From an uncultured Verrucomicrobia subdivision 3 bacterium (lineage in GTDB: Bacteria > Verrucomicrobiota > Verrucomicrobiia > Limisphaerales > UBA11358), in NCBI GenBank assembly GCA_903888765.1, contig CAISVF010000339.1:1-32879 (forward strand): DNA of 32,879 bases, in the 5' to 3' direction. The notes beneath the pieces are model-generated. The model did not search any database, was not told the origin of the DNA, and was given only the letters and a program-made list of their open reading frames with translations. The position numbers were made by a program, and so were the translations under genes. Numbering within the stretch: position 1 is the first letter of the stretch; each line of letters opens with the position of its first letter. This document shows positions 2,982-32,872 of the stretch, in pieces.

Positions 2982-2983
2982 GA

Positions 2984-6448: not shown

Positions 6449-7624
6449 TTAAAGGCCGCGTGCGCACCGAAAGCCGGCAAAAGCGTAGGGGTAGTTCGGG
6501 ATGGCGTTGATGCGATTGGCGCACCGTACGCCAGAAGCATTGCCAGCCCAATAGCCGCCACGCAGCACCCGGTAGCTCAGCAGCCCGACCGGGCCGCGGG
6601 GATCGGTCCCCCCGGCGTAGGGCGTGACATACCAGTCCCAACACCACTCATATAAATTTCCGGCCATATCCATCAAACCATAAGCATTTGCTGGAAATGA
6701 CCCCACCGGGCTCGTGCCAACGGAATCTTTCGGGTAGTTACCCACCGGGTTGAAACCGTTGGGTCCGAGATCATAGGCGTAACTAGCGGTGTCCCCTTTG
6801 TAGTTGGCCAGGCTTCCCGTAATGGTGTTACCCCAGGGAAAGCGCTGTCCGCCCAATCCGCCGCGCGCCGCCTTCTCCCATTCGGCCTCGGTGGGCAGTC
6901 GGTAGCCATTCTTCGCCCAGTTGGCATACACATTGGTGCCCGACTCGCCATTGGTGAGCACCTGCGTAAAACCGGAATCGGAGTAATAAACCGGCGTCAG
7001 GCCCACGGACTGGGAGCGCGCATTGCACCACTTCACACAATCATACCAGTCCACCGTCTCCACCGGGGTGTTCGCCGCCTTGTCGGTTCCTGCATGGACA
7101 AAGCTGTAGCCGTGGGCGGTGGCATAGTTGTAAACCGACTGCCATTGGCTCAGACTCACCAGATTCACATCCAGATAAAAAGCGGATACGTTGACGCTGA
7201 CAGGACTTGCGTCGGTGATATCGGAATCACCAATAGAATTCCCCATCGTAAAAATCCCGGCAGGAATCAACACCATCCCGTTGGTGCCCAGAACGGGTGG
7301 GTTGCTCACATAGGCCAATCCGTGCACCCGGTAAAACATCGGCCCGGCGACTTGTGTCAACACGGGAACCGTGGTCCGGAGCACGCCGTTGGAGGCCACG
7401 GTTATTGCCGCCAGACCCGCATACGCCCCGGACCAATTCGTATGCCACGGCCCGGATAAGGAGGCAGTCCATTCCACCGATGCAAGGCTGCCGGCCGCCA
7501 GATTGGAACACACCAGTTGACCGCTCAGGCTAAAGGAGGTAATCACCGGATTCTGCGCCAGGGCAAAATGAACACCAGCGAACAACACCAGTCCGACCAG
7601 CAATGAATTGAGTTTGGCTTTCAT
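6449..7624 (-). CDS. Secreted SUMF1/FGE-fold domain protein, probably without FGE activity
   Basis: A 391-residue protein from the ATG at 7624, which opens a clean signal peptide (MKAKLNSLLVGLVLFAGVHFALA). The frame continues upstream to 7747 but that part is basic and not signal-like. Residues ~22-105 form a small beta-rich domain (FSLSGQLVCSNLAAGSLASVEWTASLSGPW). From ~125 on the SUMF1/formylglycine-generating-enzyme fold is clear: FTMGNSIGD, VDWYDCVKWCNARS, NGYRLPTEAEWEKAARGG, RFPWGN, NAYGLMDMAGNLYEWCWDWY, YRVLRGGYW, FAGFRCARG. True FGE needs two copper-binding cysteines in the GGSY-x-C-x4-C region; the matching stretch here (GGYWAGNASGVRC) has no Cys at those positions. I infer a non-FGE role such as ligand binding or another SUMF1-family activity. 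No sulfatase gene lies in the window. It sits between the sensor kinase and the fucosidase, same strand. Confidence 0.87.
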   Translation of the reverse strand: MKAKLNSLLVGLVLFAGVHFALAQNPVITSFSLSGQLVCSNLAAGSLASVEWTASLSGPWHTNWSGAYAGLAAITVASNGVLRTTVPVLTQVAGPMFYRVHGLAYVSNPPVLGTNGMVLIPAGIFTMGNSIGDSDITDASPVSVNVSAFYLDVNLVSLSQWQSVYNYATAHGYSFVHAGTDKAANTPVETVDWYDCVKWCNARSQSVGLTPVYYSDSGFTQVLTNGESGTNVYANWAKNGYRLPTEAEWEKAARGGLGGQRFPWGNTITGSLANYKGDTASYAYDLGPNGFNPVGNYPKDSVGTSPVGSFPANAYGLMDMAGNLYEWCWDWYVTPYAGGTDPRGPVGLLSYRVLRGGYWAGNASGVRCANRINAIPNYPYAFAGFRCARGL

Positions 7625-7685
7625 GGTTCCAACTGCCGGATATTTTACCTGAATGGGCGAGGGTGCAAAAGAAATTAAACCCCGG

Positions 7686-7853
7686 CCCAACGGACAAGGG
7701 TTCTCAATGGCCAATTGGCGCGGCGCGCGGCGTTTACGCCGCTTCACGATCCGCAGTCCCGCAGATCAACTGATCCGCCTTCGCCTGTTGGGACAATGAA
7801 GCGACCTAAATGCGCTCCAAGAACACTGTCAAGCTGCACCCACCGGACAAGGG
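7686..7853. repeat. Pair of 15-bp direct repeats, one mismatch, 153 bp apart
   Basis: CCCAACGGACAAGGG (7686-7700) and CCCACCGGACAAGGG (7839-7853) match at 14 of 15 positions. The 138 bp between them hold most of the palindromes of this intergenic region. This could be a small non-autonomous element with flanking repeats or a fragment of a genome-wide intergenic repeat; the sequence alone does not decide. Confidence 0.45.
7727..7742. repeat. REP-like GC-rich hairpin
   Basis: GCGGCGTTTACGCCGC pairs over seven bases (GCGGCGT with ACGCCGC) around a two-base centre, or six around a TTTA loop. No T-run follows on either strand, so it is not a typical intrinsic terminator. Short GC hairpins of this form are often members of dispersed intergenic repeat families; membership is inferred, not shown. 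Confidence 0.45.
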
Positions 7854-8006
7854 CCCCCAAAAGTCCGGGCTTGCGGGGCGGGCTGAGACCATCGGTTTCA
7901 CCCAGCACAGCATCGGGAAAATCGGCGCGCACGGAAAGACGCGCCCAACTCCCCGGCGACAAATAAATAGGGCAACACGCCCCCCAAACGCGAGATCAGT
8001 TCGGAA

Positions 8007-9944
8007 TTATTGCAAGGCGAGCTTGAGATTATTCAGGTTGATGGCTTTCCAACCGGCGGCATTCGCCGCCCGGACCTTCACCTCATAGATGCCGGCCGTC
8101 TTGAAATTCAGGACTCCAAAATCGGTACTGGCAAAATTCTCCCACGCCCCGGTACGAGGAATGGCTGCGGTCAGTGGCTGACTGGCGGCCTCCAGAACAC
8201 AGCTTGCCCCCTCAAAAACCGTAGCAGCATTGCCGCTGACCCGATAGTTGCCGGGCTGATTGATTTGGACCTGCCAGGCAACCCATTCCGCAGGATTGTC
8301 CCAATAGCCGATACACGAAACCCCGCCCTGCTCTTCCAACTTGAGTTGCGTGCCATGCAACACGGCATCCTCTGCGCCAAGGCTCAGGCGGTTTTTGTTA
8401 TCCGGCGTCACGACCGCAGCCTTGGGGACAACCGGCGCGGGCTTAAAATTTTTACCCGTTATCCGGAGCGAACAAGTGAGATCGCTCAGCTTTTGAGGAG
8501 GCAAGGCCACGATCAGCCCTTCCGCCGTCTGCTCAAATTTCAAGCCACCGCGATAGCCCAGCAACTCAACCCGCCGGATCTGGTTCTGGGTATGGTCAGC
8601 CGTTCTGCCCAGGGAGCGGATAACCAATTTATTTTCCCCGGGCCAGCCCAAAGCCGTGGCGTAGAGGGTTTTACCCTTGGTCGTAAAGCGGATGTCCCGG
8701 GCGCTGTATTTGAAATTTTCCTTGAAGGCACCGCCCTTGGCCTGAACTTCGCCTTCGCCATAAACCAGCCAGGGACGCGTGCCGAAAATGGCTTCCCCAT
8801 TAACCGCATTCCACTCCGCCAACTGTTGCAGCATGGTTTCCACTTCGGGATCCAGCGTGCCATCGGGCCGCAATACCACGTTAAGCAACAAATTGCCGTT
8901 CTTGCTGGTGATGTCCACGAGCATGTGAACCGTCCAGCTTAAGGGCTGGTATTTCCAGTGGCGGTTGTAGAACCAGTCGCCGATCGAAGTATCCGTCTGC
9001 CAGGGATGCGGATTGATACCGCCATTGACCCCGCGCTCGTAGTCCTGAACCCAGCGGCCCTCGGAAGGCTGTTTGCAATTATAAACCGCCGTGATCTTGC
9101 CGTGATGCTGCCGCAGACTGTCATTGTATAAATTCGCAATCTGGCTCAAGCCCACTTCATTGCCAAAAGCGACGCCGCCATCACTGTAAAGCAGGTCGGG
9201 GTGGTAATCATCCACCAACTGCTTGATTTCATCATACCATTGCTGCTGCCAGCGGGGATTATTGGAATACCATTGGGTATCGCCTTTTTCCGCAGGAAAA
9301 TGGTAGAGATCCCAATTGTTGGAATTGGCACCGTCATAGGGAATGCCCGCCCACGGACCGGTTCTATCTGCCTTATGGGCATCTTGGAACCAGGTAAAAC
9401 TTGCGCCGAGATGTTCCGAAACGCCGAAGGGCAGGCCGTTTTTGCGGGCGGCTTTTTGCCAATCTGCCACGACATCGCGGTGCGGTCCGTAATGCAAGGC
9501 ATTCCAGGAATGCAGTGGTGAATTCCAAAGGAAGAAATCATCATGGTGCGTGCCCATGCTGACGAAGTATTTCGCGCCAGCTTTTTTGTAAAGCTTCATC
9601 AATTTTTCCGGATCCCAGTTTTCGGCCCGCCAGAGCGGAATGATGTCCTTCCAGCCATTGGTGGAAGGATGTCCGTACCGCTGGAGGTGATCGCGATAAT
9701 CCGCCGAGCCCTGCTGATACATTTTGCGCGCATACCAGTCACCTTCCATCGGGACGGCTTGCGGCCCCCAATGCGCCCAGATGCCGAATTTGGCATCGCG
9801 AAACCACTCGGGGCAGACATAATTGGTGAGAGACTCCATGGTGCCGGTATATTTGCCCGGGGTAATGGCAAGGTTGGCCGCAGTAGCGGCCGCCACCGGC
9901 AAGGCAGCGGCCAGGATCAGAACTCGAACAAGCGATGTTTTCAT
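8007..9944 (-). CDS. Secreted GH29 alpha-L-fucosidase with C-terminal carbohydrate-binding-like domain
   Basis: A 645-residue protein. Residues 1-23 are a signal peptide (VRVLILAAALPVAAATAA). The GH29 catalytic TIM barrel spans ~35-400: WFRDAKFGIWAHWG, WDPEKLMKLYKKAGAKYFVSMGTHHDDFFLW, FGVSEHLG, and DLLYSDGG, where D255 matches the GH29 nucleophile position. THHDDF has Asp where most family members have Gly (KHHDGF). A beta-sandwich tail follows (~400-510), then a C-terminal domain (~540-645: EWVAWQVQINQPGNYRVSGNAATVFEG...AAGWKAINLNNLKLAL) that resembles CBM6-like or related sugar-binding modules. It should release terminal alpha-L-fucose from an external or periplasmic glycan. It lies upstream of the SUMF1-domain gene on the same strand and diverges from the second two-component pair, so shared control from the 9945-10148 region is plausible. 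The leader before ATG is very AT-rich without a Shine-Dalgarno. Confidence 0.93.
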   Translation of the reverse strand: MKTSLVRVLILAAALPVAAATAANLAITPGKYTGTMESLTNYVCPEWFRDAKFGIWAHWGPQAVPMEGDWYARKMYQQGSADYRDHLQRYGHPSTNGWKDIIPLWRAENWDPEKLMKLYKKAGAKYFVSMGTHHDDFFLWNSPLHSWNALHYGPHRDVVADWQKAARKNGLPFGVSEHLGASFTWFQDAHKADRTGPWAGIPYDGANSNNWDLYHFPAEKGDTQWYSNNPRWQQQWYDEIKQLVDDYHPDLLYSDGGVAFGNEVGLSQIANLYNDSLRQHHGKITAVYNCKQPSEGRWVQDYERGVNGGINPHPWQTDTSIGDWFYNRHWKYQPLSWTVHMLVDITSKNGNLLLNVVLRPDGTLDPEVETMLQQLAEWNAVNGEAIFGTRPWLVYGEGEVQAKGGAFKENFKYSARDIRFTTKGKTLYATALGWPGENKLVIRSLGRTADHTQNQIRRVELLGYRGGLKFEQTAEGLIVALPPQKLSDLTCSLRITGKNFKPAPVVPKAAVVTPDNKNRLSLGAEDAVLHGTQLKLEEQGGVSCIGYWDNPAEWVAWQVQINQPGNYRVSGNAATVFEGASCVLEAASQPLTAAIPRTGAWENFASTDFGVLNFKTAGIYEVKVRAANAAGWKAINLNNLKLALQ

Positions 9945-10076
9945 TTATTTAATTATATTTTCAAAAAATTAATGCCCACTGGCGGATACAGAGTTTCCAA
10001 CAATAATGCCAGTTACAAAAAGTTTTGTCGCCTACCCAATAAGGTGGTTTATGGGAAAGTTGGAACATCTCCACAA

Positions 10077-10094
10077 ACTACCCTTTCGGGTAGT
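10077..10094. promoter_or_regulatory. Perfect inverted repeat ACTACCC-TTTC-GGGTAGT, candidate operator
   Basis: Seven-base arms around a four-base centre in the divergent intergenic space between the fucosidase (start 9944) and the sensor kinase (start near 10149). TACCC...GGGTA arms are reminiscent of the TACYYMT heptamers bound by NarL-type regulators, though the centre is two bases shorter than the NarL 7-2-7 layout. A candidate -35 (TTGACT, 10110-10115) lies just downstream on the plus strand. The product of the adjacent NarL-type regulator gene is the obvious candidate binder; this is inference. Confidence 0.4.
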
Positions 10095-10148
10095 CTGGCC
10101 CTGCAAAGATTGACTTATTTCACCCACCAGCGACAAAATCAGGGATTC

Positions 10149-12380
10149 ATGCAACGACGCCGCATAGCATCCCCGGCCGCTGACGATTTTTTCGGGCGGA
10201 GGAGCGATGAATTTAGCGGCTGCCTGGCTGGCAGCCCCAGTCGCGACCAACCGACACAGGCAGCTAGATGGATTGGGCAAAATGGAAATGGCGGCGACGG
10301 GAACAGCGCGCTTCGCCAACCCGGGAGTGCCTTTTCCAACGGCTGGCTCTACCTCGCGCTCCTGTGCTGGACCTTGATTTTACCAGCAGCAGAAACCGCT
10401 CAAGCCGGCAACGCCATGGAACTATTGACCAATGCGGCGCAAGTCAAAGCTTTGAGCGTGGCCCAGGCCGCCGAAAAAATCCCGGTCCGCGTGCAGGGAG
10501 TAGTAACCGGCGAGGGCAAAGACGGCATTGTCATTCAAGACGCCACGATGGGAATTTTCATCTACTCCGGCACCAACAATCTTTCCTGGGTTCATCGGGG
10601 GGATTTGGTGGAAATCATCGGGGTCAGCGATCCGGGAGAATTTGCGCCGGTCATCCTGCAAAATTCCGTGCGTAAAATCGGCACTGCGCCCATTCCCCTG
10701 CCCATGCCACTGGACTATGAGGAACTGACGAGCGGCTCTGCCGATGGACAATGGGTGGAAGCAAGCGGCATTGTGCGCGACTGTAAGCCAGTCGGCAATT
10801 ATGAATTCAAACTGACGCTGGCGTCCGGCGGAATGCGGCTGACGGTGCAATTCTTCGGTGCCACCAACGTCGTGGAATCGCTGGTGGATGCCGAGGTGCG
10901 GCTGCGCGGCATCATCTTTTATCAATTCAACCACAGCCGGCAGATATTAAGCCCGGTGATGATGGTGCCCGATTCGCCGCAATTGACGGTGGAAAAACCG
11001 GCCCCGGCCGAACCCTATTCCGCGCCGCTGCGACAGCCACAAAGCCTCATGCTGTATTCTCCCAAAGATCTCCGGCACCACCGCGTGCGCATGCCAGGCA
11101 TGGTCATCCACCAAATCTCCGGCCAGGCCATCTGGTTGCGGGCAGCTGGGCAAGGTTTGCGGGTGGAAACCCGCCAGGTTTTTCCGCTGCAGCCGGGCGA
11201 TACAATCGAAGCTCTGGGATTTCCGGGCAGCGGCGATTACACCCCTATTTTGGAAGACGCCATTTACCGGAAAACCGCCAGCGCCACCAATTCCCCCGCC
11301 CCGCTGCGAGTCAATAAAAAGGTCGATGCCTTGGCGCATGACGCCGATTTGATCCAATTGGAGGGTGAACTGCAGGAACTCACGCGCACGATCAATGGCT
11401 GGCAGGTAACGCTGAACTGGAACAATCTTTCCCTGCTGGCCACCCTGCAGGACCTGCAACCCTTGCCGGCAAACTGGGAGCCGGGAAGCTTCGTGCAAAT
11501 AACCGGCATTTGTCATGTGACCACAGATAGTCCCAGCACCGCCGGCGGCATCCGCGAGCCGCGGGAATTCCAGCTACTACTGCGCTCCCCCGCCGACTTG
11601 CGGGTGGTGAAAAACAAGCTGTGGTGGACCACGACACGGATTCTGGTTCTGCTGGGACTGGCCACCATTCTGTCACTGCTGGCGGTCGCTTCGGTCGCCT
11701 GGATGGCGCGCCAACGGCTGCGCGAACAAGCGCTGCGGCGAAAAATGGCTGAGGCGGAGTTTTCCGCCATGTTTGCCGAGCGCAACCGCATCGCCCGCGA
11801 AATCCACGACACGCTGGCGCAAGGGCTGGGGGCCATTTCCATGCATCTGGAAATGGTGAAGGAACAATTGAACCGCGAACCCGCCAAGGTATTGAAGCAT
11901 CTTGATATTGCGCACCAGATGGCGCGGCAAAGCCTCGGCGAAGCCCGCAATTCCATCTGGAACATGCGCTCCCAAATCCTCGAAAACACCGATCTAGCGT
12001 CCGCACTGGAAGGCATCCTCCACCAACTCACGGAAGGCACTGACATCAAAAGCCAGTTTACCGTCACCGGCGCAGCCCGGCGACTGGCCTCCGCCATCGA
12101 AAACAATCTGCTACGCGTGGGCCAGGAAGCCATCACCAATGCCGTGAGACATTCACAGGCGCGGAGCCTGGTGGTAACACTTGATTTCAGCCCGTCGGAA
12201 GCCAGCCTGAGCGTGCGAGATGACGGCAGCGGATTTGACCCCGCCCAGCTACCGGCAGGAACCCATTTCGGAATGATTGGCCAGCGGGAACGCACCGCGC
12301 AAATGGGCGGCAAACTGGAAGTGATCAGTTCTCCCGGCCAAGGCACCGAGGTGCAGGTGAGCATCCCGATTTACGAATAA
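10149..12380 (+). CDS. Membrane sensor histidine kinase (HisKA_3 / HATPase_c) with OB-like sensor domains
   Basis: About 743 residues from the ATG at 10149 (AGGGA three bases before it). A hydrophobic signal segment at ~65-80 (GWLYLALLCWTLILPAAETAQA) is preceded by an unusually long polar N-terminus, so the true start may lie further in. Residues ~90-500 form a periplasmic sensor with repeats of a fold found in verrucomicrobial kinases: VKALSVAQAAEKIPVRVQGVVT...GIVIQDATMGIFIYSG, then RHHRVRMPGMVIHQISGQAIWLRAAGQGLRVET. A membrane helix follows (RILVLLGLATILSLLAVASVAWM). The cytoplasmic HisKA_3 domain carries H553 in REIHDTLAQGLGAIS, the NarX/DesK-type motif, and the HATPase_c domain has QEAITNAVRHSQA, DDGSGF and GMIGQRERT. 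The ligand is unknown. Its partner is the response regulator 21 bases downstream. The frame is open upstream to 9543, but that part is antisense to the fucosidase. Confidence 0.9.
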   Translation: MQRRRIASPAADDFFGRRSDEFSGCLAGSPSRDQPTQAARWIGQNGNGGDGNSALRQPGSAFSNGWLYLALLCWTLILPAAETAQAGNAMELLTNAAQVKALSVAQAAEKIPVRVQGVVTGEGKDGIVIQDATMGIFIYSGTNNLSWVHRGDLVEIIGVSDPGEFAPVILQNSVRKIGTAPIPLPMPLDYEELTSGSADGQWVEASGIVRDCKPVGNYEFKLTLASGGMRLTVQFFGATNVVESLVDAEVRLRGIIFYQFNHSRQILSPVMMVPDSPQLTVEKPAPAEPYSAPLRQPQSLMLYSPKDLRHHRVRMPGMVIHQISGQAIWLRAAGQGLRVETRQVFPLQPGDTIEALGFPGSGDYTPILEDAIYRKTASATNSPAPLRVNKKVDALAHDADLIQLEGELQELTRTINGWQVTLNWNNLSLLATLQDLQPLPANWEPGSFVQITGICHVTTDSPSTAGGIREPREFQLLLRSPADLRVVKNKLWWTTTRILVLLGLATILSLLAVASVAWMARQRLREQALRRKMAEAEFSAMFAERNRIAREIHDTLAQGLGAISMHLEMVKEQLNREPAKVLKHLDIAHQMARQSLGEARNSIWNMRSQILENTDLASALEGILHQLTEGTDIKSQFTVTGAARRLASAIENNLLRVGQEAITNAVRHSQARSLVVTLDFSPSEASLSVRDDGSGFDPAQLPAGTHFGMIGQRERTAQMGGKLEVISSPGQGTEVQVSIPIYE

Positions 12381-12401
12381 AAACAAGTTCCATTCCAAAT
12401 A

Positions 12402-13034
12402 GTGAAAACCAAAGAACAAATCAAATTGCTAGTGGTGGACGACCATCCCACGTTCCGCATGGGACTGGTGGCATTGGTGGAAAGCCAGACCGACATGACG
12501 GTGATCGCCGAGGCGGGCGATGGCCAGACTGCCCTGCACCTGTTTCGCCAGAAAAAGCCCGACGTGGTCTTGATGGATTTGCGCATGCCCGGGCAAGGCG
12601 GCGTGGAAACCATTCTGGCGCTACTGAAGGAATTCCCGGCTGCGCGAGTGATCGTGGTCACCACGTATGATCTGGATGAGGATATTTTTCGTGCCATTCA
12701 AGCGGGAGCCAAATCCTACCTGCTGAAGGACATGCCACGCGAACAAGTCATCCAGACCATTCGCGACGTCCATCGCGGCAAGCCCAAACTGCCGCCGGGC
12801 GTCCTGAGCCGACTGGAAGAACGCTCCCGCCGACAGGAGTTGTCCGAGCGGGAAATGGAAATCCTGCAACTGATTGTGAAAGGACGCAGCAATAAGGAAA
12901 TCAGCAGCGAACTTCACATCGCGGAAGATACCGTCAAATACCATTTAAAAACCGTGTTTACCAAACTCGCCGTCCAGGACCGCACCGAAGCCGCTATCAG
13001 TGCGATCCGCCATGGGATAGTGCATCTGGAATAA
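12402..13034 (+). CDS. NarL/FixJ-family response regulator
   Basis: A 210-residue regulator that starts with GTG 21 bases after the kinase stop. The receiver domain (residues ~8-125) has D13-D14, phospho-acceptor D59 (VVLMDLRMP), Thr in VVTTYD and Lys in SYLLKD. The LuxR-type helix-turn-helix (~145-205) is canonical: LSEREMEILQLIVKGRSNKEISSELHIAEDTVKYHLKTVFTKLAVQDRTEA. It should be phosphorylated by the kinase just upstream and bind DNA as a dimer. The canonical TVKYHL recognition helix contrasts with the altered one in the other regulator of this window. The divergent position of the pair to the fucosidase gene suggests, but does not prove, that the fucosidase is a target. Confidence 0.95.
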   Translation: MKTKEQIKLLVVDDHPTFRMGLVALVESQTDMTVIAEAGDGQTALHLFRQKKPDVVLMDLRMPGQGGVETILALLKEFPAARVIVVTTYDLDEDIFRAIQAGAKSYLLKDMPREQVIQTIRDVHRGKPKLPPGVLSRLEERSRRQELSEREMEILQLIVKGRSNKEISSELHIAEDTVKYHLKTVFTKLAVQDRTEAAISAIRHGIVHLE

Positions 13035-21325: not shown

Positions 21326-22003
21326 GTGGCCGAACCCATTGTAACCATTCGCGAACTGTCCAAGGTTTATCAGCAGGGCGAAATCCAGGTGATGGCATTG
21401 GACCGCATCACTCTCGACATCGCCGCCGGTGAATTTCTGGCCCTGATGGGTCCTTCCGGCTCCGGCAAATCCACTTTGCTGCACATCATTGCCGGCGTAG
21501 ATCGTCCGACCAGTGGGGTATGCCTGGTCCAAGGCATTGAGGTCACGAAATTAAACGAATCGCAACTCGCCGACTGGCGCAACCATAACGTCGGGTTTAT
21601 TTTTCAAACGTTCAATCTGATCCCGGTGCTGACCGCTGCGGAAAATGTGGAGCTGCCCTTGCTGCTGACGCGATTGAACCGCGCTGAAAGACGCAAGCAG
21701 GTGGAAACGGCGCTGGAGGTGGTTGGCCTGTCCGACCGGGCAAAACATCTTCCCCGCCAGCTATCCGGCGGGCAGGAACAGCGCGTGGCCATCGCCCGGG
21801 CACTGGTGACCGATCCAGCCCTGATTGTCGCGGATGAACCCACCGGCAATCTCGACTCACACAGTGCCCAAGAGGTGCTGGGCGCTCTACAAGCATTGCG
21901 CAAGGATGCCGGCAAAACCATCATCATGGTGACGCATGATCCCAAGGCGGCCGCGTTTGGCACCCGGCAAATTCATCTGGAAAAAGGCGAACTGAGCCCA
22001 TGA
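21326..22003 (+). CDS. ABC transporter ATP-binding protein (MacB/LolD/DevA type)
   Basis: A 225-residue ATPase that starts with GTG 72 bases after rpoD. Walker A is GPSGSGKST (42-50), the Q loop is in [21 protein letters not shown], the signature is LSGGQ (146-150), Walker B is ALIVADE (165-171) followed by PTGNLD, and the switch His is H204 (MVTHD). The sequence type is that of the MacB/LolD group, which drives mechanotransmission rather than classical import or export through the permease. Its last four bases (ATGA) overlap the start of the first permease gene. It should energise both permeases of this operon. Confidence 0.95.
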
Positions 22004-23145
22004 CCACGGCGAGTTTCATCCTCAAGAATGCCTTCCGGAACAAGCGGCGGGCGCTGCTTTCTGTGTCGAGCGTAGCGGTCAGTTTGTTCCTGCTGGTGAC
22101 CTTGCAGGTGGCCTTGCGCGAATTGACGCTGCCTCCGCAAAGTGCCGGAGCAGAGCTGCGCGTGGCGGTGCGGAACAAGATTTCATTGACCAACCCCCTG
22201 CCCGTCCGCCAGCGCAAAATCATTGAAAAGGTGCCTGGCGTCGAAGCCGTAACCCCGTTTACGTGGTTCGGCGGCAAATACAAAAACGAGGAAGGGATGA
22301 GCTTTGCGCAGTTTGCCATGGACGCTGACAAACTGCAGTCGGTTTTCGGCGAAGCCAAAATGAACGTGGATGGCTACGAGAAATTCACCGCAGAAAAAGA
22401 CGCCTGCGTACTCGGCAAAATCACGGCCGACAAATATCACCTGAAAGTGGGCGACCGCATTACTCTGGACAGCACCGTTTATCCGGGATCGCTGTCGTTT
22501 CATATTGCGGGCATTTATGCCGGAACTCCGGATGACCGCAACATGCTGTTCCGGCAGGATTATCTGGATGAATCCATCGGCCTGCCGGGATACGTGGGCA
22601 TGTGGTGGCTTAAAGTACGTTCCGCTGACGACATGGTGCCCGTTATCCAGGCCATCAATGCCGCTTTTCAAAACACCGCCGCCGAGGTGCGGGCCGAAAG
22701 CGAGCGCAATTTTCAACTCGGCTTTATATCCATGCTCGGCAATATAAAAACCCTGATTGCGTCCATCAGCACCGTAGTGGTGTTTACCCTTGTGCTGGTC
22801 ACCGCCAGCACCATGAGCATGGCGGTGCGCGAGCGCTTCCGCGAACTGGCCATTCTCAAGGCGCTGGGCTTCCAGCGCCGCGAATTGTTTGCCTTTATCC
22901 TGGCGGAAAGCTTTGGCCTCGCCGGTGCCGGTGCCATAGCGGGCATTGGCAGCGCTTACCTGCTCTATACCTTCGGCGACATCGGCAAAATGACGGCGGG
23001 CATTTTCGTGGCTTTTGAAGTCACCCCGCGCATCATGGGTTTTGCCGCGCTGGTGGCGGCCTTGCTGGGCATCGCTTCCGCCGTGGCGCCCGCGCTGTCG
23101 GTTGCCCGGATGAGCGTGGTGGGCGGCCTGAAAACTTTGGACTGA
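22000..23145 (+). CDS. ABC transporter permease, FtsX/MacB fold (first of two)
   Basis: A 381-residue membrane protein with the four-helix MacB/FtsX layout: one N-terminal helix after a basic start ([28 protein letters not shown]), a large periplasmic MacB_PCD-like domain (~50-240) and three C-terminal helices ([55 protein letters not shown] in part, [36 protein letters not shown]). The [14 protein letters not shown] motif is the coupling segment to the ATPase. Start overlaps the ATPase stop as ATGA, so translation is coupled. It resembles DevC and LolC/E in size. Substrate unknown. Confidence 0.92.
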
Positions 23146-23146
23146 A

Positions 23147-24310
23147 ATGGCCCTGCCTCTCACCTACAATTTCCGCAATGTGCTGGTGCGCTGGCGCGCG
23201 ACCCTGGCCACCATACTCGGCATTGGATTGGTGGTCGCCGTGTTTGTGCTCGTACAATCGTTGGCGATCGGCCTGGAAAAATCGGCCGGCAACACCGGTG
23301 ATCCGCGCAACCTCATGATCGTCCGCAAAGGCTCAACGGCCGAATCCACGAGCCAGGTTTCCCTCGCCCAATTCCAGATTATCCGCTACTGGGAACTAAT
23401 CGCGCACGATGCTGCCGGCACACCGCTGGTTTCCGCCGACGTCGTCACGCTGATCAGCCAGCCGCGCCGGGACGGACGCGGAGAAGCCAACGTCTCCGTG
23501 CGCGGCCTGACGCCGGTGGGAATGACCTTGCGGCCACAGGTAAAATTACTCACCGGTCGCTGGTTCATACCCGGAAAACGCGAACTCATCGTCAGTCGAA
23601 AAATAGCGCGCCGCTTTGCCGGCTTTCAGGTGGGTGAATCGTTCCGCACCGCCGGTAACACGCTTTCGGTTGTGGGGGAATTCGACGGGAGCAACAGCGC
23701 ATTTGATTCGGAGTTGTGGATGGACGCGGACGAAGCGCGGTCCCTCTTTGACCGGCAGAATTATTCCAGCCTGCTGGTGCGAGCGGCCAACCCGGAGGCG
23801 AGCCGTGAAATCATAAATCGCATTGAATCCGACAAGCGACTGCCGCTGCTGGCTGAGCCAGAAGTGAAATATTACGGCGACCAGACCGCGACTGCCTTGC
23901 CAATTAAAATCCTGGGCAACTTTCTCGCCACGGCGATGTCCATTGGTGCGGTATTTGCCGCCATGAACACGATGTACGCCAGTGTGGGCTCGCGCACCCG
24001 GGAAATCGGCACCCTGCGCGTATTGGGTTTCCGGCGGCGCACGATCCTCGCCGGCTTTATCCTGGAAGGAGCCCTGCTGGCGGCGATTGGCGGCATTCTC
24101 GGCTGCCTGCTGGCGCTGCCGTTGCATGGGGTTTCGACCGGCACCATGAGCTTCAACTCATTTAGCGAAACCGTATTTGAGTTTCGCATCACGCCCTGGC
24201 TCGCTGTTAAAGGGATTACTTTTGCCATCGTGGTGGGCGTTATCGGCAGCCTGATGCCGGCCATTCGCGCTTCCCGACTGCCGGTCATTGCGGCCTTGAA
24301 ATCCCTATGA
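23147..24310 (+). CDS. ABC transporter permease, FtsX/MacB fold (second of two)
   Basis: A 387-residue protein of the same fold as the preceding gene but clearly diverged: N-terminal helix (LVRWRATLATILGIGLVVAVFVLVQSLAIGL), periplasmic domain (~50-265), and three C-terminal helices with the coupling motif GSRTREIGTLRVLGFRRRTILAGFILEGALLAAIGGILGCLLALPL in segments and ITFAIVVGVIGSLMPAIRASRL at the end. One base separates its ATG from the stop of the first permease. The two probably form a heterodimer around the single ATPase, as LolC and LolE do. Substrate unknown. Confidence 0.92.
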   Translation: MALPLTYNFRNVLVRWRATLATILGIGLVVAVFVLVQSLAIGLEKSAGNTGDPRNLMIVRKGSTAESTSQVSLAQFQIIRYWELIAHDAAGTPLVSADVVTLISQPRRDGRGEANVSVRGLTPVGMTLRPQVKLLTGRWFIPGKRELIVSRKIARRFAGFQVGESFRTAGNTLSVVGEFDGSNSAFDSELWMDADEARSLFDRQNYSSLLVRAANPEASREIINRIESDKRLPLLAEPEVKYYGDQTATALPIKILGNFLATAMSIGAVFAAMNTMYASVGSRTREIGTLRVLGFRRRTILAGFILEGALLAAIGGILGCLLALPLHGVSTGTMSFNSFSETVFEFRITPWLAVKGITFAIVVGVIGSLMPAIRASRLPVIAALKSL

Positions 24311-24328
24311 TCTGATTCCCGGATTTTC

Positions 24329-25318
24329 ATGAACACTGACAAACTTAAACGCCTGCACATCAACCCGGAAGAGAAGCGGCGCCCCCGGCTCGTATTTTGG
24401 AGCATCGTGCTGGTGGTAGCTGCGGTGATCTTGAGCACCGTAATCTTCATCAAGCCGTGGGCCAAAGATTTGCGAGAAACGGCCCCCCAATCTACGGACA
24501 ACCCCAATAGCAATATCGCCAATTCCCTCGTTAATCCAACCGCAACCAATGTGACGGCCAAAATGAATCCCCCCAACGCAGACAGCGTGCTGACCGTCAG
24601 CGGCTACATCATTAATCGCGAGCGGATTGAAATTAGCCCGCGTTTTCTCGGCATGGTAAAATGGATTGGCGTAAAAAAAGGCGACGCGGTAACCAACGGC
24701 CAAGTGGTGGTGAAATTGGATGATACGGAATATCGTGCCCGCTTGTTGGAGGCCGCCGGGCAGCTGAACACTGCCTTGGCCGCTGTGGAACGCGACGAAC
24801 TAAACTACCAACGCATCCAAAGTCTGGTCCGCACCGCCGTTGAATCCAAAGAGTCCGGCGACAATGCACGGCTCGCCCTTGCCGCCGACCGCGCCGGCCT
24901 GCAGTCAGCCCAGGGCAATTATGATCTGGCGCAAACCTACGTGGATTGGTGCGTGATCCGCTCCCCCATCAACGGCGTGGTGCTGGAAAAACTCGTAAAC
25001 CCGGATGAACTGGTCATGCCACAAAGTTTTGGTGGCACACGCGGGCCTAGCACAGCGCTGCTTGCTGTTGCCGACCTGACGGATTTGCAGGTGGAAATTG
25101 ATGTCAGCGAAGCGGACCTCTCCAAAATTTCCTTGAACCAGAAATGCCGCGTCAGCCCGGAGGCTTACCTCGAAAAAACCTACGCCGGACGCGTCGCCGA
25201 AATCGCCCCGGAAGCAGACCGGGCCAAAGGCACTTTGCAAATCAAGGTCCAGATTACGAATCCCGATAAATACCTTACCCCCCAATTGAGTGCCAAAGTG
25301 GACTTCTTAAAAGATTAG
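24329..25318 (+). CDS. Periplasmic membrane-fusion (adaptor) protein of ABC exporter
   Basis: A 329-residue HlyD/MacA/DevB-type adaptor. A membrane anchor lies at ~22-45 (LVFWSIVLVVAAVILSTVIF), then a linker, the first lipoyl half-motif (ISPRFLGMVKWIGVKKGDAVTNGQVVVKLDDTEY in part), a short alpha-hairpin (~135-195), the second lipoyl half (WCVIRSPINGVVLEKLVNPDELVMP) and a beta-barrel domain (LQVEIDVSEADLSKISLNQKCRV). It starts 18 bases after the second permease and completes a tripartite-type exporter, though no outer-membrane TolC-like gene is in the window; that partner would have to be encoded elsewhere. The hairpin is short compared with MacA, nearer to DevB-like adaptors. Confidence 0.93.
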   Translation: MNTDKLKRLHINPEEKRRPRLVFWSIVLVVAAVILSTVIFIKPWAKDLRETAPQSTDNPNSNIANSLVNPTATNVTAKMNPPNADSVLTVSGYIINRERIEISPRFLGMVKWIGVKKGDAVTNGQVVVKLDDTEYRARLLEAAGQLNTALAAVERDELNYQRIQSLVRTAVESKESGDNARLALAADRAGLQSAQGNYDLAQTYVDWCVIRSPINGVVLEKLVNPDELVMPQSFGGTRGPSTALLAVADLTDLQVEIDVSEADLSKISLNQKCRVSPEAYLEKTYAGRVAEIAPEADRAKGTLQIKVQITNPDKYLTPQLSAKVDFLKD

Positions 25319-26571: not shown

Positions 26572-29500
26572 ATGAAGATGTTAACCTCCAGGAAGTCCAT
26601 CTTTTGCTTAACCGCAGGGATGGCCGGATGGCTCGGCTTCATGCCGGTAAATATGTTTGCCTCTGATCAGGCTCTCGGGCATGACACGATGACTAGCCTT
26701 ACCCCGAAGGCCTATGTTTGTGTGCACGCCCTCAGCCCGCCCTTAATTGACGGTGACCTCAACGATCCCGCCTGGCGGTCAGCCGAGTGGACAGATGATT
26801 TCGTGGATATAATGGGGCCCGGCAAACCCAAGCCGCGTTTCCGGACGCGGGCAAAATTGCTGTGGGACGACAAAAATCTCTACCTCGCTGCTGAAATTCA
26901 GGAACCCCACGTTTGGGCCACCCTGACCAACCATGATGCGGTCATTTTCCGCGATCCTGATTTCGAGGTTTTCCTCGATCCCAAGGGCGAAACGCAACCC
27001 TATTACGAGTTTGAGATAAATGCCCTGAACACGACTTGGGATTTGCGTCTTAGCAAGCCTTATCTCGACGGAGGCAAGCCGCACAACGAATGGGAAATCG
27101 CAGGTGCAAAAACGGCTGTAAAGATTCAGGGGACCATCAATAACCCCGGCGATGCTGATCAGGGGTGGACGATCGAGCTGGCGTTTCCCTGGCAAGTACT
27201 GGCTGAACACGCGCGACACTCCGGTCCGCCGGAGGAAGGCGAACAATGGCGCATCAATTTTTCCCGCGTCGAATGGCAGATTACGCAGGCTAACGGAGCA
27301 TACCAAAAACTGCCGGACACACCGGAAGACAACTGGGTATGGTCGCCACAAGGAGTTGTAGATATGCACCGGCCTGAAATGTGGGGGTTGGTACAATTTA
27401 CCAGCGAACCGGCGCAGGGAAATATTTCCGCGAGAAAGATTCCCGGCCCATCTGCGCGTGATTTGGCCTTGAAAATTTATCATGCACAGCAGGATTTCCG
27501 GGCAGCTCATAAACGCTGGGCCACCAACCTGGTGGAATTAGGCTGGAACCGGCAAGATTTTATGCCCGGCACAGACATACCAATACTGGAAAAGACCGCG
27601 GATGGTTTTACCTGCGCCGTCGGATTTAAGGATGGTGACCAGGAGCACTTCTGGCGAATCCGCCAGGACCGGCTCTTGAAACTCGACGAAGCATTGCCCG
27701 TGGAGTCAGAGGCCTTCGTTTCCCAGGCAGCAGCAAAATACGGCGACTTTGGCCGGCGCGCGGCATTTTTTCTCGCCGACAACATGCCGGCTGGCGACCG
27801 CGCTACCTTGGATTGTGAGTTTCTCATGGAAAATCTGGGGTTGGCCCTCGAGGCGCACACGCGGTTTCCGTGGTCGAAAAATGTGCCGGAGCGGATATTT
27901 TTTAATGATGTTTTGCCCTATGCCTCGCTGGATGAGCCTCGGGATCCCTGGCGCGCGGGTTTTTATCGGCTCGCTTCAGAAATGGTGCGCGGGTGCACGA
28001 ACGCCACCGCAGCGGCGCAGACCCTGAATCGCGAATTGTTCAACCGGCTTAAAGTCCATTATAACCTTGCCCGTAAACGCAATAATCAAAGTCCGGCGGA
28101 ATCCATTGAGCAGGGAAAAGCCACCTGTACCGGCTTGGCGATCATTCTGGTGGACGCTTGTCGGGCAGTGGGTGTGCCTGCTCGCATTGCGGGAGTGCCA
28201 CGCTGGGCGCAGAAAGACGGCAACCATACCTGGGTCGAAATCTGGGATGGGGACTGGTTTTTCACGGGTGCGGATGAATATAATAAAAATGGCTTGAATC
28301 GCGGCTGGTTTAATTCCGACGCCGCGATCACGGCACATAGCACTAATACACTCAACCAAGTCTATGCTACCAGTTGGCGACACACGGGAACTTATTTTCC
28401 CTTGGCTTGGGACTGGAATTCCAGCGACGTACCGGCAGTGAATGTTTCCTCGCGTTATGCTGCCTTGGAGGCGGCCCCCGAACCATCCTCCACAAGAGTC
28501 CATCTGCGTTTGCGCGAAAAGGCGGATGCCGAGCGCCTGGTGGCTGAGGTTGAAATGCACGCCGCCACCGGCGAGTTGCTGGGGCGAAGTCAAACGCGCG
28601 CAGGCACCTCCGATTTGAATGATATGCCCGAATTTGCCTTGCCGGAGCACGCCCGCAGTGTGGTTTTCCGGTTTATTCGCAGCGGCGAGGCGAGAGAAAG
28701 CGTCCTGCCCTGTGCCGTGTGTATGAAATCGCCGACGTTGGATTTTGTTTGGGGTGATTTGGCACCGGTTCCGCGATCCATTCTGGCCGCAGAAACCTGG
28801 CTGGCCCGGCCTCTGGCTCAGCGGGGGCCTCCCCCGGAATGGCCATTTTCCCGCGAGGATTCTGCGCGTTTGCTTTCTATGGTATCATCCGTTTTCCAAA
28901 AAGAGCAGGCTTCGTTGGCAACCGAGGAGTTGTCCGCAAAATGCATCCGACTGGGCGATAAAACCTTGAAGTGGATGGAGAAAACCTTTGGTGATGCACC
29001 GGCTGGCAAACACAGTCTATGGATTACCCTGCACGGCGGCGGCGAAGCCACTGGGGCGGAGAATGACCGTAATTGGAGAGGGTATTTCGGCCGGTACGAG
29101 TTTCCGCCTGGCAGCATTAATGTGGCGCCGCGGGCACCCGCCAACACCTGGGATATGTGGCATGTCCCTTGGGTGGACGATCTGTTGGACCGGTTGATCA
29201 CTGATTATGTTTCCCGGCGCGAGGTGGATCCTAACCAGGTTTATCTCATCGGCTATTCTGCCGGAGGCGATGGCGTTTACCAACTGGCCCCACGTTTGGC
29301 CGATCGCTTTGCTGCGGCAGCCATGTGCGCTGGTCATCCCAATGAAGTAACGCCGGAGGGACTGCGTAATCTGCCCTTTTTTCTCTATATGGGCGGCGAG
29401 GACTCAGCCTATCATCGCAATCTCGTGGTCCGCGAATTCAGTGCCAAAATGGACGTGCTGCAAGCTGAAGACCCGCCTGGTTATCCGCACCGCCTCACGG

Positions 29501-29913
29501 TATTTCCCGGCCTGCCGCATAACATGCAAAACCGTGAAGCGGAGATGATCCCACGAATGTCGCCGCTGTTGCGCACACCATGGCCAAAGCGCGTGGTTTG
29601 GAAACAGGACAACGTCACACACGCCCGTTTTTACTGGCTGGAACGGGATCCCGCCGCCGTGAAGCCTGATGAAATTTACGCGGCGCACGTGGAAGGCCAG
29701 ACCATCACCATCGAAAAACCCGCCCGGGGAAATGTGCGCCTGCGCTTGGCCGATTCATTGCTTGATCTGGATCAAGCCATTCGCGTCATGGCCGGCGGAA
29801 AAATCCAGTTTGCAGGTAAAATATCGCGTTCGTTTGCTGTGCTGGTCAACTCGCTACGCGACCGCCCGGACGAAGACACGGTCGCCACGGCATTGCTGCC
29901 GGTCTCGTGGTAA
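26572..29913 (+). CDS. Secreted three-domain protein: CBM9-like, transglutaminase-like, alpha/beta hydrolase
   Basis: A 1113-residue protein. A signal peptide covers ~1-31 (SRKSIFCLTAGMAGWLGFMPVNMFAS). Residues ~45-275 match the CBM9-like sugar-binding fold of surface enzymes: PPLIDGDLNDPAWRSAEWTDDF, AKLLWDDKNLYLAAEI, DPDFEVFLDPKG, YYEFEINALNTTWDLRLSKP, WTIELAFPW. Residues ~495-580 hold a transglutaminase-like domain: QGKATCTGLAIILVDACRAVGVPARI, GNHTWVEIWDGDWFFTGADE, giving a complete C519-H552-D568 triad. Residues ~810-1000 are an alpha/beta hydrolase: LWITLHGGG, nucleophile elbow GYSAGGD (S896), GGED (D944) and LPHNM (H983). The three activities suggest that it binds a glycan and cuts or transfers amide and ester bonds on it, or on peptidoglycan or glycoprotein. 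It stands alone on its strand. The start could also be the second Met, two codons in. Confidence 0.88.
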   Translation: MKMLTSRKSIFCLTAGMAGWLGFMPVNMFASDQALGHDTMTSLTPKAYVCVHALSPPLIDGDLNDPAWRSAEWTDDFVDIMGPGKPKPRFRTRAKLLWDDKNLYLAAEIQEPHVWATLTNHDAVIFRDPDFEVFLDPKGETQPYYEFEINALNTTWDLRLSKPYLDGGKPHNEWEIAGAKTAVKIQGTINNPGDADQGWTIELAFPWQVLAEHARHSGPPEEGEQWRINFSRVEWQITQANGAYQKLPDTPEDNWVWSPQGVVDMHRPEMWGLVQFTSEPAQGNISARKIPGPSARDLALKIYHAQQDFRAAHKRWATNLVELGWNRQDFMPGTDIPILEKTADGFTCAVGFKDGDQEHFWRIRQDRLLKLDEALPVESEAFVSQAAAKYGDFGRRAAFFLADNMPAGDRATLDCEFLMENLGLALEAHTRFPWSKNVPERIFFNDVLPYASLDEPRDPWRAGFYRLASEMVRGCTNATAAAQTLNRELFNRLKVHYNLARKRNNQSPAESIEQGKATCTGLAIILVDACRAVGVPARIAGVPRWAQKDGNHTWVEIWDGDWFFTGADEYNKNGLNRGWFNSDAAITAHSTNTLNQVYATSWRHTGTYFPLAWDWNSSDVPAVNVSSRYAALEAAPEPSSTRVHLRLREKADAERLVAEVEMHAATGELLGRSQTRAGTSDLNDMPEFALPEHARSVVFRFIRSGEARESVLPCAVCMKSPTLDFVWGDLAPVPRSILAAETWLARPLAQRGPPPEWPFSREDSARLLSMVSSVFQKEQASLATEELSAKCIRLGDKTLKWMEKTFGDAPAGKHSLWITLHGGGEATGAENDRNWRGYFGRYEFPPGSINVAPRAPANTWDMWHVPWVDDLLDRLITDYVSRREVDPNQVYLIGYSAGGDGVYQLAPRLADRFAAAAMCAGHPNEVTPEGLRNLPFFLYMGGEDSAYHRNLVVREFSAKMDVLQAEDPPGYPHRLTVFPGLPHNMQNREAEMIPRMSPLLRTPWPKRVVWKQDNVTHARFYWLERDPAAVKPDEIYAAHVEGQTITIEKPARGNVRLRLADSLLDLDQAIRVMAGGKIQFAGKISRSFAVLVNSLRDRPDEDTVATALLPVSW

Positions 29914-30010: not shown

Positions 30011-32872
30011 ATGAATTTATTCGTTCCCGGTCAACGTTGGATGAGCGAAACGGAGCCAGAACTCGGATTGGGAACCGTTCTGGAATCTGGCAACGCCCGC
30101 GTGGTCATCGGCTTCAAAGCGGTCGGTGAAACTCGGACCTATGCCGCTGCGCAGGCGCCATTAAAGCGAGTTCGCTTTCGCGCCGGCGAACTCATAAACA
30201 CGTTGTCGGACAGGGAGTTTCTCGTTCAGGAAGTCCGGGAGCGAGATGGTTTGCTGCTGTATGTCAGCGCTAGCGCACAACTGACCGAAGACCAGATAAG
30301 CGACCGGGTCAATTTCCAGGGGCCGCAGGTGCGTTTATTTGCCGGGCGATTTGACGCTCTGGAAACGTTCTCCTTGCGGCGACGCACCTTGGAACTGCTT
30401 TACCAATTGCGCCAGTCACCCGTGCGTGGTTTCGTGGGTGGCCGCATTGATCTGATTCCACATCAACTGTACATCGCCCAAGAAGTTACCAGCCGGCGCG
30501 CTCCCCGGGTGATGCTGTCTGATGAAGTGGGCTTGGGAAAAACCATTGAAGCTGGTTTGATCTTGCATCGCTTGCTGTTGAGTGGCCGGGTGAATCGCAT
30601 CCTGGTGCTGGTGCCTGAGTCGCTGGTGCATCAATGGTTTGTGGAAATGCTTCGCCGGTTCAATGTCCGGTTCCATATATTTGATGCGGAACGTTGCCGC
30701 GCAATCGAAGCGGGCGAGCCGGGAGCCAATCCGTTTCTGGATGACCAACTCATTATGACCAGCGTTGATTTCCTGGCGGGTAATCCGCCCCGCGCAGAAC
30801 AAGCGGCGGCGGCATGCTGGGATATGCTCGTGGTGGATGAGGCTCACCACCTGGCCTGGTCCGAAGCCGCAGTTAGTTCCGAATATCAGGTGGTGGAGCA
30901 ACTCAGTCGCAAGTCAACCGGTCTGTTACTGTTAACTGCCACGCCGGAACAACTGGGGGAGGAAAGCCACTTTGCCCGGTTACGCTTGTTGGATCCCGAC
31001 CGGTATCAGGATTTTGCCACCTTTCAAAGCGATTCCCAGGATTATCAAGCCACGGCAAAAGTTCTGGAGAAACTGATTGTCGGAGCGCGGCTAACGCAAA
31101 AGGACCGTTCCACCTTGTGTCGTTTGCTCGCACCTGACCCTGCGTTAGCCAAACGTTTTTCGGAGTTGAATCCAGCCAACCCGGAGGCGCGGAATAGCTG
31201 GTTGGATCTATTATTGGATTTACACGGGCCCGGCCGCGTATTGTTTCGCAATACGCGATCCGGCATGAAGGGTTTTCCTGAACGAATCCTGCATTTGGCC
31301 CGCTTGGAGCCCGGTGCCGAAACGGAGCACTGGCTGGACCGTGTTTCCATGGAATTTGCCGCCGATGCCGGCGCATCCGGATTGCCTATTGCCCTGGATT
31401 GGGAGCGTGATCCACGTGTTTTATGGCTGGTGGATTTGTTGCGCCAGTTGGATCCAGCCAAGGTGCTGGTCATCAGTCGCACCTTGGATAAAGCCGAAGC
31501 CTTGGATGCGGCCTTGCGTCGGCACCTGACCATAAAAACCGGCATTTTTCATGAAGGACTAACCTTGGTGCAGCGGGATCGCCAAGCCGCCTGGTTTGCG
31601 GATCCGGACGGGGCGAGACTGCTCATTTGTTCGGAGATTGGCAGCGAAGGCCGGAACTTTCAATTCGCACATCATTTGGTTCTGTTTGATCTGCCCGTCA
31701 ATCCTGAACTGCTCGAACAGCGCATTGGACGACTGGATCGAATTGGCCAGGGTGAAGACATCCATATTTACGTGCCGTATCTCGCGCACAGTCCCCAGGA
31801 AGTGTTGGCGCGCTGGTATCACGAGGGGTTGGAGGCTTTCACCATGAATCTCGAGGGCGGCAACGCCTTGCTGCAGCAGTTTGGCCGGGCCATTCATGAC
31901 CTGGCTTTGGAATTTCCGGTGGCCAATCGCCCAGTGGCGGAACAGGAATTGTCTGCCCTCCTCAATCAAACCAAATCCGCCGCCAAGGAAATTCGCCAGC
32001 GCTTGGCAACCGGGCGAGATCGCCTATTAGAACTGAATTCCTTTCGTCCGGCCCCGGCGCAAAAGCTTATTCAGCAGATTCAAAGGCAAGATCACCAGCC
32101 GGATCTGGAAAATTATCTCCTCGAAATATTCGACCATTTTGGGGTCCACGCGGAGGAGTTGGCACCCCATACCTGGCAGCTAAATGCGCAGAGAATCATC
32201 ACGGATGCTTTTCCATCTCTGCCCGCCGAAGGCATGATCGCAACTTGCGATCGCCGCCGCGCACTAAGCCGCGAAGAGGTCGGCTTTCTTACCTGGGATC
32301 ATCCATTGGTAATAGGCGCGATGGATCTTTTGCTGACGGATGAGACCGGTAATTGTGCCTTTGCCGTGTTGTCCACGCCCAACGACCGCACACTGCTTTT
32401 AGAATTGATTTTTATCCTCGAAACCATCGCGGCGCCGGCTCTGCATGCGGATCGCTTTTTGCCGCCAACGCCCATTCGCGTAGTCATTAATCATAAACTG
32501 GTGGAGGTCACCGATGCCTGTGGCGGTCCGGATTGGCATCAAAAGCTGAAAAAAGGCCATCCCTACAAATTAATGGAGAACGAGAATATTGCGCGCAAGA
32601 TTCTGCCGGCGATGTTTCAAGCAGCCGAAAAATTAGCAGAAAACCGGGCGTCGGCCATGCGGCAGGCTGCCTTGCAACAAATGGAACTCCTTCTCACGCA
32701 CGAGGTACAGCGGTTGCAATCGCTCGCGCAAATAAACAAATATATTCGGCCGCAAGAAATCCAAATGGCCCAAAATGAGCAGGCGGAACTAGGACAAAAA
32801 CTGCAAGAATCCCGGCTACGACTCGATTCTCTACGGCTCATTTGGCAAGGGTTGGCCGAAACATTGGTTTGA
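30011..32872 (+). CDS. rapA: RNA polymerase-associated Swi2/Snf2 ATPase RapA
   Basis: A 953-residue protein, near the 968 of E. coli RapA, and complete within the window. The N-terminal Tudor-like region has the RapA signature (PGQRWMSETEPELGLGTV, then RTYAAAQAPLKRVRF). The helicase core has motif I DEVGLGKTIEAG (K177), VLVPESLVHQWFVEM, DEAHH (276-280), LLLTATPEQLG, and in the second lobe VLVISRTLDKAEAL, LLICSEIGSEGRNFQFAHHLVLFDLP and EQRIGRLDRIGQ. The C-terminal ~350 residues hold the spacer and RapA-specific part, ending in a coiled-coil-like charged helix. RapA binds RNA polymerase core and promotes its recycling after termination. No clear ribosome binding site precedes the ATG. The preceding gene ends 97 bases upstream; they do not look functionally linked. 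Confidence 0.94.
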   Translation: MNLFVPGQRWMSETEPELGLGTVLESGNARVVIGFKAVGETRTYAAAQAPLKRVRFRAGELINTLSDREFLVQEVRERDGLLLYVSASAQLTEDQISDRVNFQGPQVRLFAGRFDALETFSLRRRTLELLYQLRQSPVRGFVGGRIDLIPHQLYIAQEVTSRRAPRVMLSDEVGLGKTIEAGLILHRLLLSGRVNRILVLVPESLVHQWFVEMLRRFNVRFHIFDAERCRAIEAGEPGANPFLDDQLIMTSVDFLAGNPPRAEQAAAACWDMLVVDEAHHLAWSEAAVSSEYQVVEQLSRKSTGLLLLTATPEQLGEESHFARLRLLDPDRYQDFATFQSDSQDYQATAKVLEKLIVGARLTQKDRSTLCRLLAPDPALAKRFSELNPANPEARNSWLDLLLDLHGPGRVLFRNTRSGMKGFPERILHLARLEPGAETEHWLDRVSMEFAADAGASGLPIALDWERDPRVLWLVDLLRQLDPAKVLVISRTLDKAEALDAALRRHLTIKTGIFHEGLTLVQRDRQAAWFADPDGARLLICSEIGSEGRNFQFAHHLVLFDLPVNPELLEQRIGRLDRIGQGEDIHIYVPYLAHSPQEVLARWYHEGLEAFTMNLEGGNALLQQFGRAIHDLALEFPVANRPVAEQELSALLNQTKSAAKEIRQRLATGRDRLLELNSFRPAPAQKLIQQIQRQDHQPDLENYLLEIFDHFGVHAEELAPHTWQLNAQRIITDAFPSLPAEGMIATCDRRRALSREEVGFLTWDHPLVIGAMDLLLTDETGNCAFAVLSTPNDRTLLLELIFILETIAAPALHADRFLPPTPIRVVINHKLVEVTDACGGPDWHQKLKKGHPYKLMENENIARKILPAMFQAAEKLAENRASAMRQAALQQMELLLTHEVQRLQSLAQINKYIRPQEIQMAQNEQAELGQKLQESRLRLDSLRLIWQGLAETLV

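Follow-up and report, generated by a model that had tools for sequence, protein, structure and literature searches.

The transglutaminase-like superfamily, which includes the Pfam family Transglut_core, the Cytophaga protein 3isr, animal transglutaminases, PNGase and LapG, has a common fold with a catalytic Cys and His; its third residue is usually Asp, four residues past a conserved Trp, and its bacterial members are often hydrolases. CE1-like esterases, such as LC-Est1C (3wyd), the Thermotoga esterase 3doh and feruloyl esterases, combine the alpha/beta-hydrolase fold with a Ser-Asp-His triad and an HGGG motif. CBM9 beta-sandwich domains are represented by CBM9-2 of Thermotoga maritima Xyn10A, CBM9.3 of Caldicellulosiruptor and BACUNI_03838; a Caldicellulosiruptor CBM9 domain that lacks the residues of the classical clamp showed no binding to any natural carbohydrate assayed (PMC8280721). 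CBM9 domains and an alpha/beta-hydrolase esterase are also found on one chain in the multimodular CkXyn10C-GE15A, which is made up of a xylanase, a glucuronoyl esterase, CBM9 and CBM22 (PMC8280721).

Here, we describe a gene on a 32,879-nucleotide stretch of DNA (the window) from an uncultured Verrucomicrobia subdivision 3 bacterium, whose 1,113-residue product joins a CBM9-like domain, a transglutaminase-like domain (TG) and a serine alpha/beta-hydrolase domain (HYD). Compared to the described systems, (i) the CBM9-like domain shares the CBM9_1 match and the beta-sandwich fold but carries a 95-residue extension, has no attached xylanase and has Phe126 in place of the first clamp Trp of the Thermotoga domain; (ii) TG shares the fold, the Cys and His, an HTWVE motif and the conserved Trp of its superfamily, but its likely third residue is Glu in most members of the family, displaced by a three-residue insertion, and the family has its own N-terminal helical part and occurs also as TG-HYD; and (iii) HYD shares the fold, triad and HGGG motif of CE1-like esterases, its best sequence matches, but has its own conserved C-terminal beta domain and is fused to TG and CBM9. 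CkXyn10C-GE15A differs from the present protein in that it has no TG domain, uses another esterase family and includes a glycoside hydrolase. We found no description of the CBM9, TG and HYD combination in the open-access literature, in agreement with an earlier sequence-only reading of the window, which had not recognized it as a described enzyme, and no paper there describing the activity of any family member. The new finding is that TG and HYD are linked time and again and that CBM9 is repeatedly their partner; all of the folds were already known. Since the three domains are of familiar kinds, what is surprising is that they are combined and that the combination is conserved, rather than the chemistry.

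Three folds on one probably exported chain

The sequence-only reading had proposed a single secreted chain with three domains, and Pfam matches, predicted folds and a Sec-like N-terminus bear this out (Table 1). Judged against the curated cut-offs, all three Pfam matches are above threshold: CBM9_1 at residues 59-211 (E 4.7e-13; 49.9 bits against a cut-off of 23.4), Transglut_core at residues 466-565 (E 3e-15; 56.9 bits against 23) and, barely over its cut-off, DLH at residues 866-991 (E 1e-4). For the full chain, AlphaFold gives a model with a mean pLDDT of 88.4 and a pTM of 0.56, so that the domains are reliable and their arrangement relative to each other is not; folded alone, the TG part reaches a pLDDT of 94.3 and a pTM of 0.92. 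Structural comparison separates three folds: residues 43-277 match CBM9 structures (4jpq, Z 21.1; 7nwn, Z 20.2; 1i82, Z 20.1), about residues 788-1002 match esterases (LC-Est1C, Z 21.6; 3doh, Z 21.0), and the TG part has a best Z of 11.5, with the leading rows all from the transglutaminase superfamily. The chain also contains parts that the earlier reading had not listed, namely, the extension at residues 281-375, the linker at residues 641-745 and the beta domain at residues 1006-1113.

Table 1. Features of the three-domain gene, in window coordinates.
Feature	Residues	Position	Strand	Basis or conservation
Whole gene	1-1113	26572..29913	+	ATG start; 1113 aa plus stop; intact ORF
Likely Sec signal sequence	1-31	26572..26664	+	Judged by eye
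CBM9-like beta-sandwich domain	43-280	26698..27411	+	Pfam CBM9_1 and fold match
Extension of CBM9-like part	281-375	27412..27696	+	Common to lone CBM9 proteins
Transglutaminase-like domain (TG)	378-640	27703..28491	+	Pfam Transglut_core and fold
Expected nucleophile	C519	28126..28128	+	31/31 in 58-row alignment; invariant in 50-row TG alignment
Expected base	H552	28225..28227	+	31/32 in 58-row alignment; invariant in 50-row TG alignment
Expected third residue	E569	28276..28278	+	Glu in 31/31 (58-row alignment)
Beta-rich linker region	641-745	28492..28806	+	Secondary structure of model
Serine alpha/beta-hydrolase, esterase-like (HYD)	784-1002	28921..29577	+	Pfam DLH and fold
HGGG oxyanion-hole motif	821-824	29032..29043	+	40/40 in 58-row alignment
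Nucleophile in GYSAGGDG	S896	29257..29259	+	41/41 in 58-row alignment
Triad acid	D944	29401..29403	+	40/40 in 58-row alignment
Triad histidine	H983	29518..29520	+	40/40 in 58-row alignment
C-terminal beta domain	1006-1113	29587..29910	+	Travels with HYD

The protein is likely exported, judging from its sequence: inspected by eye, the N-terminus has a basic start followed by a hydrophobic stretch, with no lipobox cysteine, and most of the orthologs and single-domain relatives examined in the same way have signal-like N-termini. All domains are under purifying selection (dN/dS of 0.08, 0.08 and 0.07 for the three domains relative to the closest relative), and the linker evolves fastest of all parts (about 0.19). 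The lone CBM9 relatives, of about 365 to 385 aa, align along residues 40-375, showing that the 95-residue extension belongs to the CBM9 family. In a Bacteroidota metagenome-assembled genome, a CBM9-like domain of the same family is fused to a GHL10 glycosyl-hydrolase-like domain (L065:7905-10016, + strand).

Most of the catalytic residues named in the sequence-only reading (C519, H552, S896, D944 and H983) are conserved, and only the third TG residue was misplaced, by one position. It had been taken to be D568, a position that is variable in the 58-row alignment (Asp in 23 of 32 rows, with 6 Ala, 2 Ser and 1 Cys) and can be ruled out against the conserved acid that follows it; the acid kept at E569 makes this residue most likely the third of the triad. 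Counting from the conserved Trp, position W+4 in the present protein is Gly566 and E569 is W+7. The fused forms in the 50-row TG alignment have the pattern W-x-x-x-G-A-x-E, compared with W-x-x-x-E in several lone forms, indicating that a three-residue insertion in the fused forms has shifted the acid from W+4 to W+7; in the rows shown, the acid is Glu or Asp.

For HYD, profile searches with the family identify esterases as its nearest kin at the sequence level, with matches to LC-Est1C (1.1e-15), 3doh (3.5e-9) and a feruloyl esterase (8.9e-5). The domain does not reach the cut-offs of two NCBIfam models for esterases, TIGR01840 (30.6 against 107.85 bits) and NF050058 (36.1 against 150 bits).

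Fused, split and permuted forms

Three-domain relatives with about 60 to 73% identity were found in 7 of the 97 related genomes searched, and more are present on named Verrucomicrobia contigs, several of which are contigs already among the 97-genome matches. In total, the TG tree places ten distinct three-domain proteins, all from Verrucomicrobiota, in a single clade (100% support). The CBM9-TG-HYD architecture is a real, conserved family and the fusion is not a one-off; this number of proteins in several genomes, their identity of ∼60 to 73% and a dN/dS of 0.07 to 0.08 exclude chance or an assembly artefact. In the CBM9 tree, the fused CBM9 domains form a group (94%) whose sister is the lone CBM9 protein L034 (94%), and both nest within a larger set of lone verrucomicrobial CBM9 proteins. 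The simplest history suggested by this nesting is that a lone CBM9 gene fused once with a TG-HYD gene; the trees and the unfused forms support a scenario in which a free-standing secreted CBM9-like protein would have been joined to the N-terminus of an older TG-HYD protein.

TG-HYD proteins, mostly of 710 to 870 aa, are widespread in Verrucomicrobiota and Planctomycetota, with 38 in the TG tree set. The order is reversed (HYD-TG) in two genomes (L076 and L077); a TG-HYD gene is followed by a separate CBM9 gene at four loci (L067-L070), and a HYD gene by a CBM9 gene at L071. In one planctomycete (L168), the three parts are consecutive genes on one strand: TG at 7676-8857, HYD at 8829-10151 and CBM9 at 10188-11294, with a 28-bp overlap between the first two and a 37-bp gap between the last two. 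The adjacent 290-residue CBM9 genes of L067-L071 form a deep clade apart from the fused CBM9 domains in the CBM9 tree, which argues that a CBM9-like partner joined the TG/HYD system more than once. Since CBM9, TG and HYD recur in relatives as genes that lie side by side or are joined in other ways, it is very probable that the three parts act jointly on an extracellular substrate.

Co-occurrence points the same way. Among 388 Verrucomicrobiota genomes, HYD is present in 20 and TG in 67 (E <= 1e-40); TG is found in 17 of the 20 HYD genomes, where 3.5 were expected (p = 1.3e-11), and, with the 12 fused cases set aside, in 5 of 8, where 1.2 were expected (p = 0.002). Counted by genus, the unfused co-occurrence gives p = 0.001; the correction for relatedness is incomplete in all of these tests. 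TG is also frequently present without HYD, which suggests that it has a role of its own. Outside Verrucomicrobiota, the TG family occurs in 55 of 246 Planctomycetota genomes (E <= 1e-20) and is rare in Bacteroidota (2 of 296).

Several relatives depart from these layouts. One genus with genomes of 2.2 to 3.5 Mb (G117, G120, G123 and others of g51) conserves a stand-alone TG protein of ∼380 aa; in L135, from the same set, its gene is flanked by a lipid-kinase gene and a dus gene, a setting that speaks against a glycan-related role. Three Planctomycetota relatives of 1,000 residues (L149, L151 and L152) have a weak additional HYD-profile match (37 to 42 bits) ahead of TG, possibly a second, degenerate hydrolase piece. 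In L070 (7455-12095, - strand), L107 and L112, 490 to 780 residues precede the TG domain, and these residues gave no other Pfam match in the two proteins scanned (L070 and L107).

The gene neighbourhoods appear to lean towards glycans, with exceptions. One three-domain gene (L032) has a GH29 alpha-L-fucosidase gene ending 14 bp upstream of it, and a GH109-like gene overlaps the start of another three-domain open reading frame (L029), for which the start chosen may be too early. In Bacteroidota, lone CBM9 genes have GH29 genes next to them (L059 and, by homology, L062-L064), a GH20 gene adjoins the sister CBM9 gene of L034, and sulfatases adjoin TG-HYD in L069 and L080. The 80 genes in apparent operons are diverse: glycan-related genes are a minority, several are housekeeping genes, and no single neighbour defines TG-HYD among them, the most frequent being sulfatases (4), followed by 3-keto-disaccharide hydrolase, GH2 and AstE/AspA-type genes (3 each). 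It also counts against the glycan leaning that genes for sulfatases, GH29 enzymes and MocA-type proteins are common throughout these phyla.

Proposed function and competing readings

Our leading proposal, to which we give slightly less than an even chance, is that the protein is an exported bifunctional hydrolase whose target is a glycoconjugate outside the cell or in the periplasm. Docking to the polymer would fall to the CBM9-like domain; TG, with its transglutaminase fold and C519, H552 and E569, would attack an amide as a peptidase or amidase; and HYD, with its esterase-like fold and S896, D944 and H983, would remove an ester-linked group in a CE1-like manner. A chain that combines both activities with a docking module could remove adjoining substituents together. 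The processing of an acyl- or peptide-substituted glycan, which the sequence-only reading had suggested, is compatible with the data, and we favour it on the basis of neighbour genes and domain kinship. More speculatively, TG and HYD may constitute an undescribed two-enzyme module, widespread in Planctomycetota and Verrucomicrobiota, which removes amide- and ester-linked substituents from one particular extracellular glycoconjugate and for which CBM9-like targeting was recruited repeatedly; we hold this broader proposal with somewhat less confidence. That the parts are found on a single chain, on two chains, in reshuffled order and as genes in tandem is strong comparative evidence for one common substrate. 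If they do share a substrate, two phyla known for complex-polysaccharide turnover harbor an uncharacterised exported enzyme pair, and the fusion offers a single protein with which to seek the substrate.

The CBM9-like domain is a candidate sugar binder. A somewhat unlikely alternative is that this domain binds protein or another ligand and that the chain is a pair of hydrolases for a non-glycan substrate. Trp71 of the Thermotoga CBM9, part of its two-Trp clamp, aligns with an aromatic residue, Phe126, and the second Trp has no position alignable by sequence; the classical clamp is not clearly kept. A natural CBM9 domain without the clamp bound no natural carbohydrate tested (PMC8280721), and for BACUNI_03838, the closest CBM9 by fold, no ligand is stated. 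However, the family has a strongly conserved motif set, NWVWSPQG..DMHRPEMWG, which suggests a genuine binding site, and lone CBM9 relatives stand beside GH29 or GH20 genes or are fused to a glycosyl-hydrolase-like domain.

Unlikely, and less credible again, is that the protein mainly processes peptides or peptidoglycan, with TG as a cysteine endopeptidase, HYD as a serine peptidase or wall O-acyl esterase and the CBM9-like domain holding the wall glycan. TG does have pseudomurein endoisopeptidase, PNGase and LapG among its Foldseek matches, TG-HYD is usually single copy in varied gene neighbourhoods, and an AstE/AspA-type gene with weak similarity to the murein tripeptide amidase MpaA lies beside TG-HYD at three loci; yet these loci belong to one genus, the MpaA similarity is far under the cut-off, and the TG/HYD pair is absent from most genomes sampled in the phylum. 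Likewise, the HYD fold is common to DPP4-like peptidases, at a Z of about 18, the part aligned with DPP4-type chains being only about residues 788-1000; but esterases rank first for HYD by sequence profiles, and Peptidase_S9 is absent among the Pfam matches of the protein at E up to 0.05.

The suggestion that TG is a true transamidase, cross-linking or anchoring the protein to a matrix, gained no support and is very improbable: although animal transglutaminases are the closest solved folds by Z (up to 11.5), bacterial 3isr, annotated as a putative cysteine protease, is close at Z 10.0, ranks first in Foldseek and gives the only good match by sequence profile, most forms have Glu as the third residue, following a three-residue insertion, and bacterial transglutaminase-like domains are often hydrolases. 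Kinship with such bacterial proteins makes a hydrolytic amidase or peptidase, as in our leading proposal, the likelier role for TG than cross-linking.

The window has a GH29 alpha-L-fucosidase gene of its own (8007-9944, - strand), which lies 17 kb from the three-domain gene, beside regulators and in a different operon. Near it are a formylglycine-generating-enzyme-like gene and two sensor kinase/LuxR-type regulator pairs, one of the sensor kinases carrying a two-component-regulator propeller (remaining coordinates of the locus, 6449-7747, 2984-6280 and 2340-3173 on the - strand and 9543-13034 on the + strand); this may be a fucose-glycan sensing locus. Elsewhere in the window, an ABC transporter ATPase, two MacB/FtsX-type permeases and an HlyD-type adaptor are encoded in a row at 21326-25318 (+ strand), and 30011-32872 (+ strand) encodes a full-length RapA-type RNA polymerase recycling ATPase with both Tudor-like domains.
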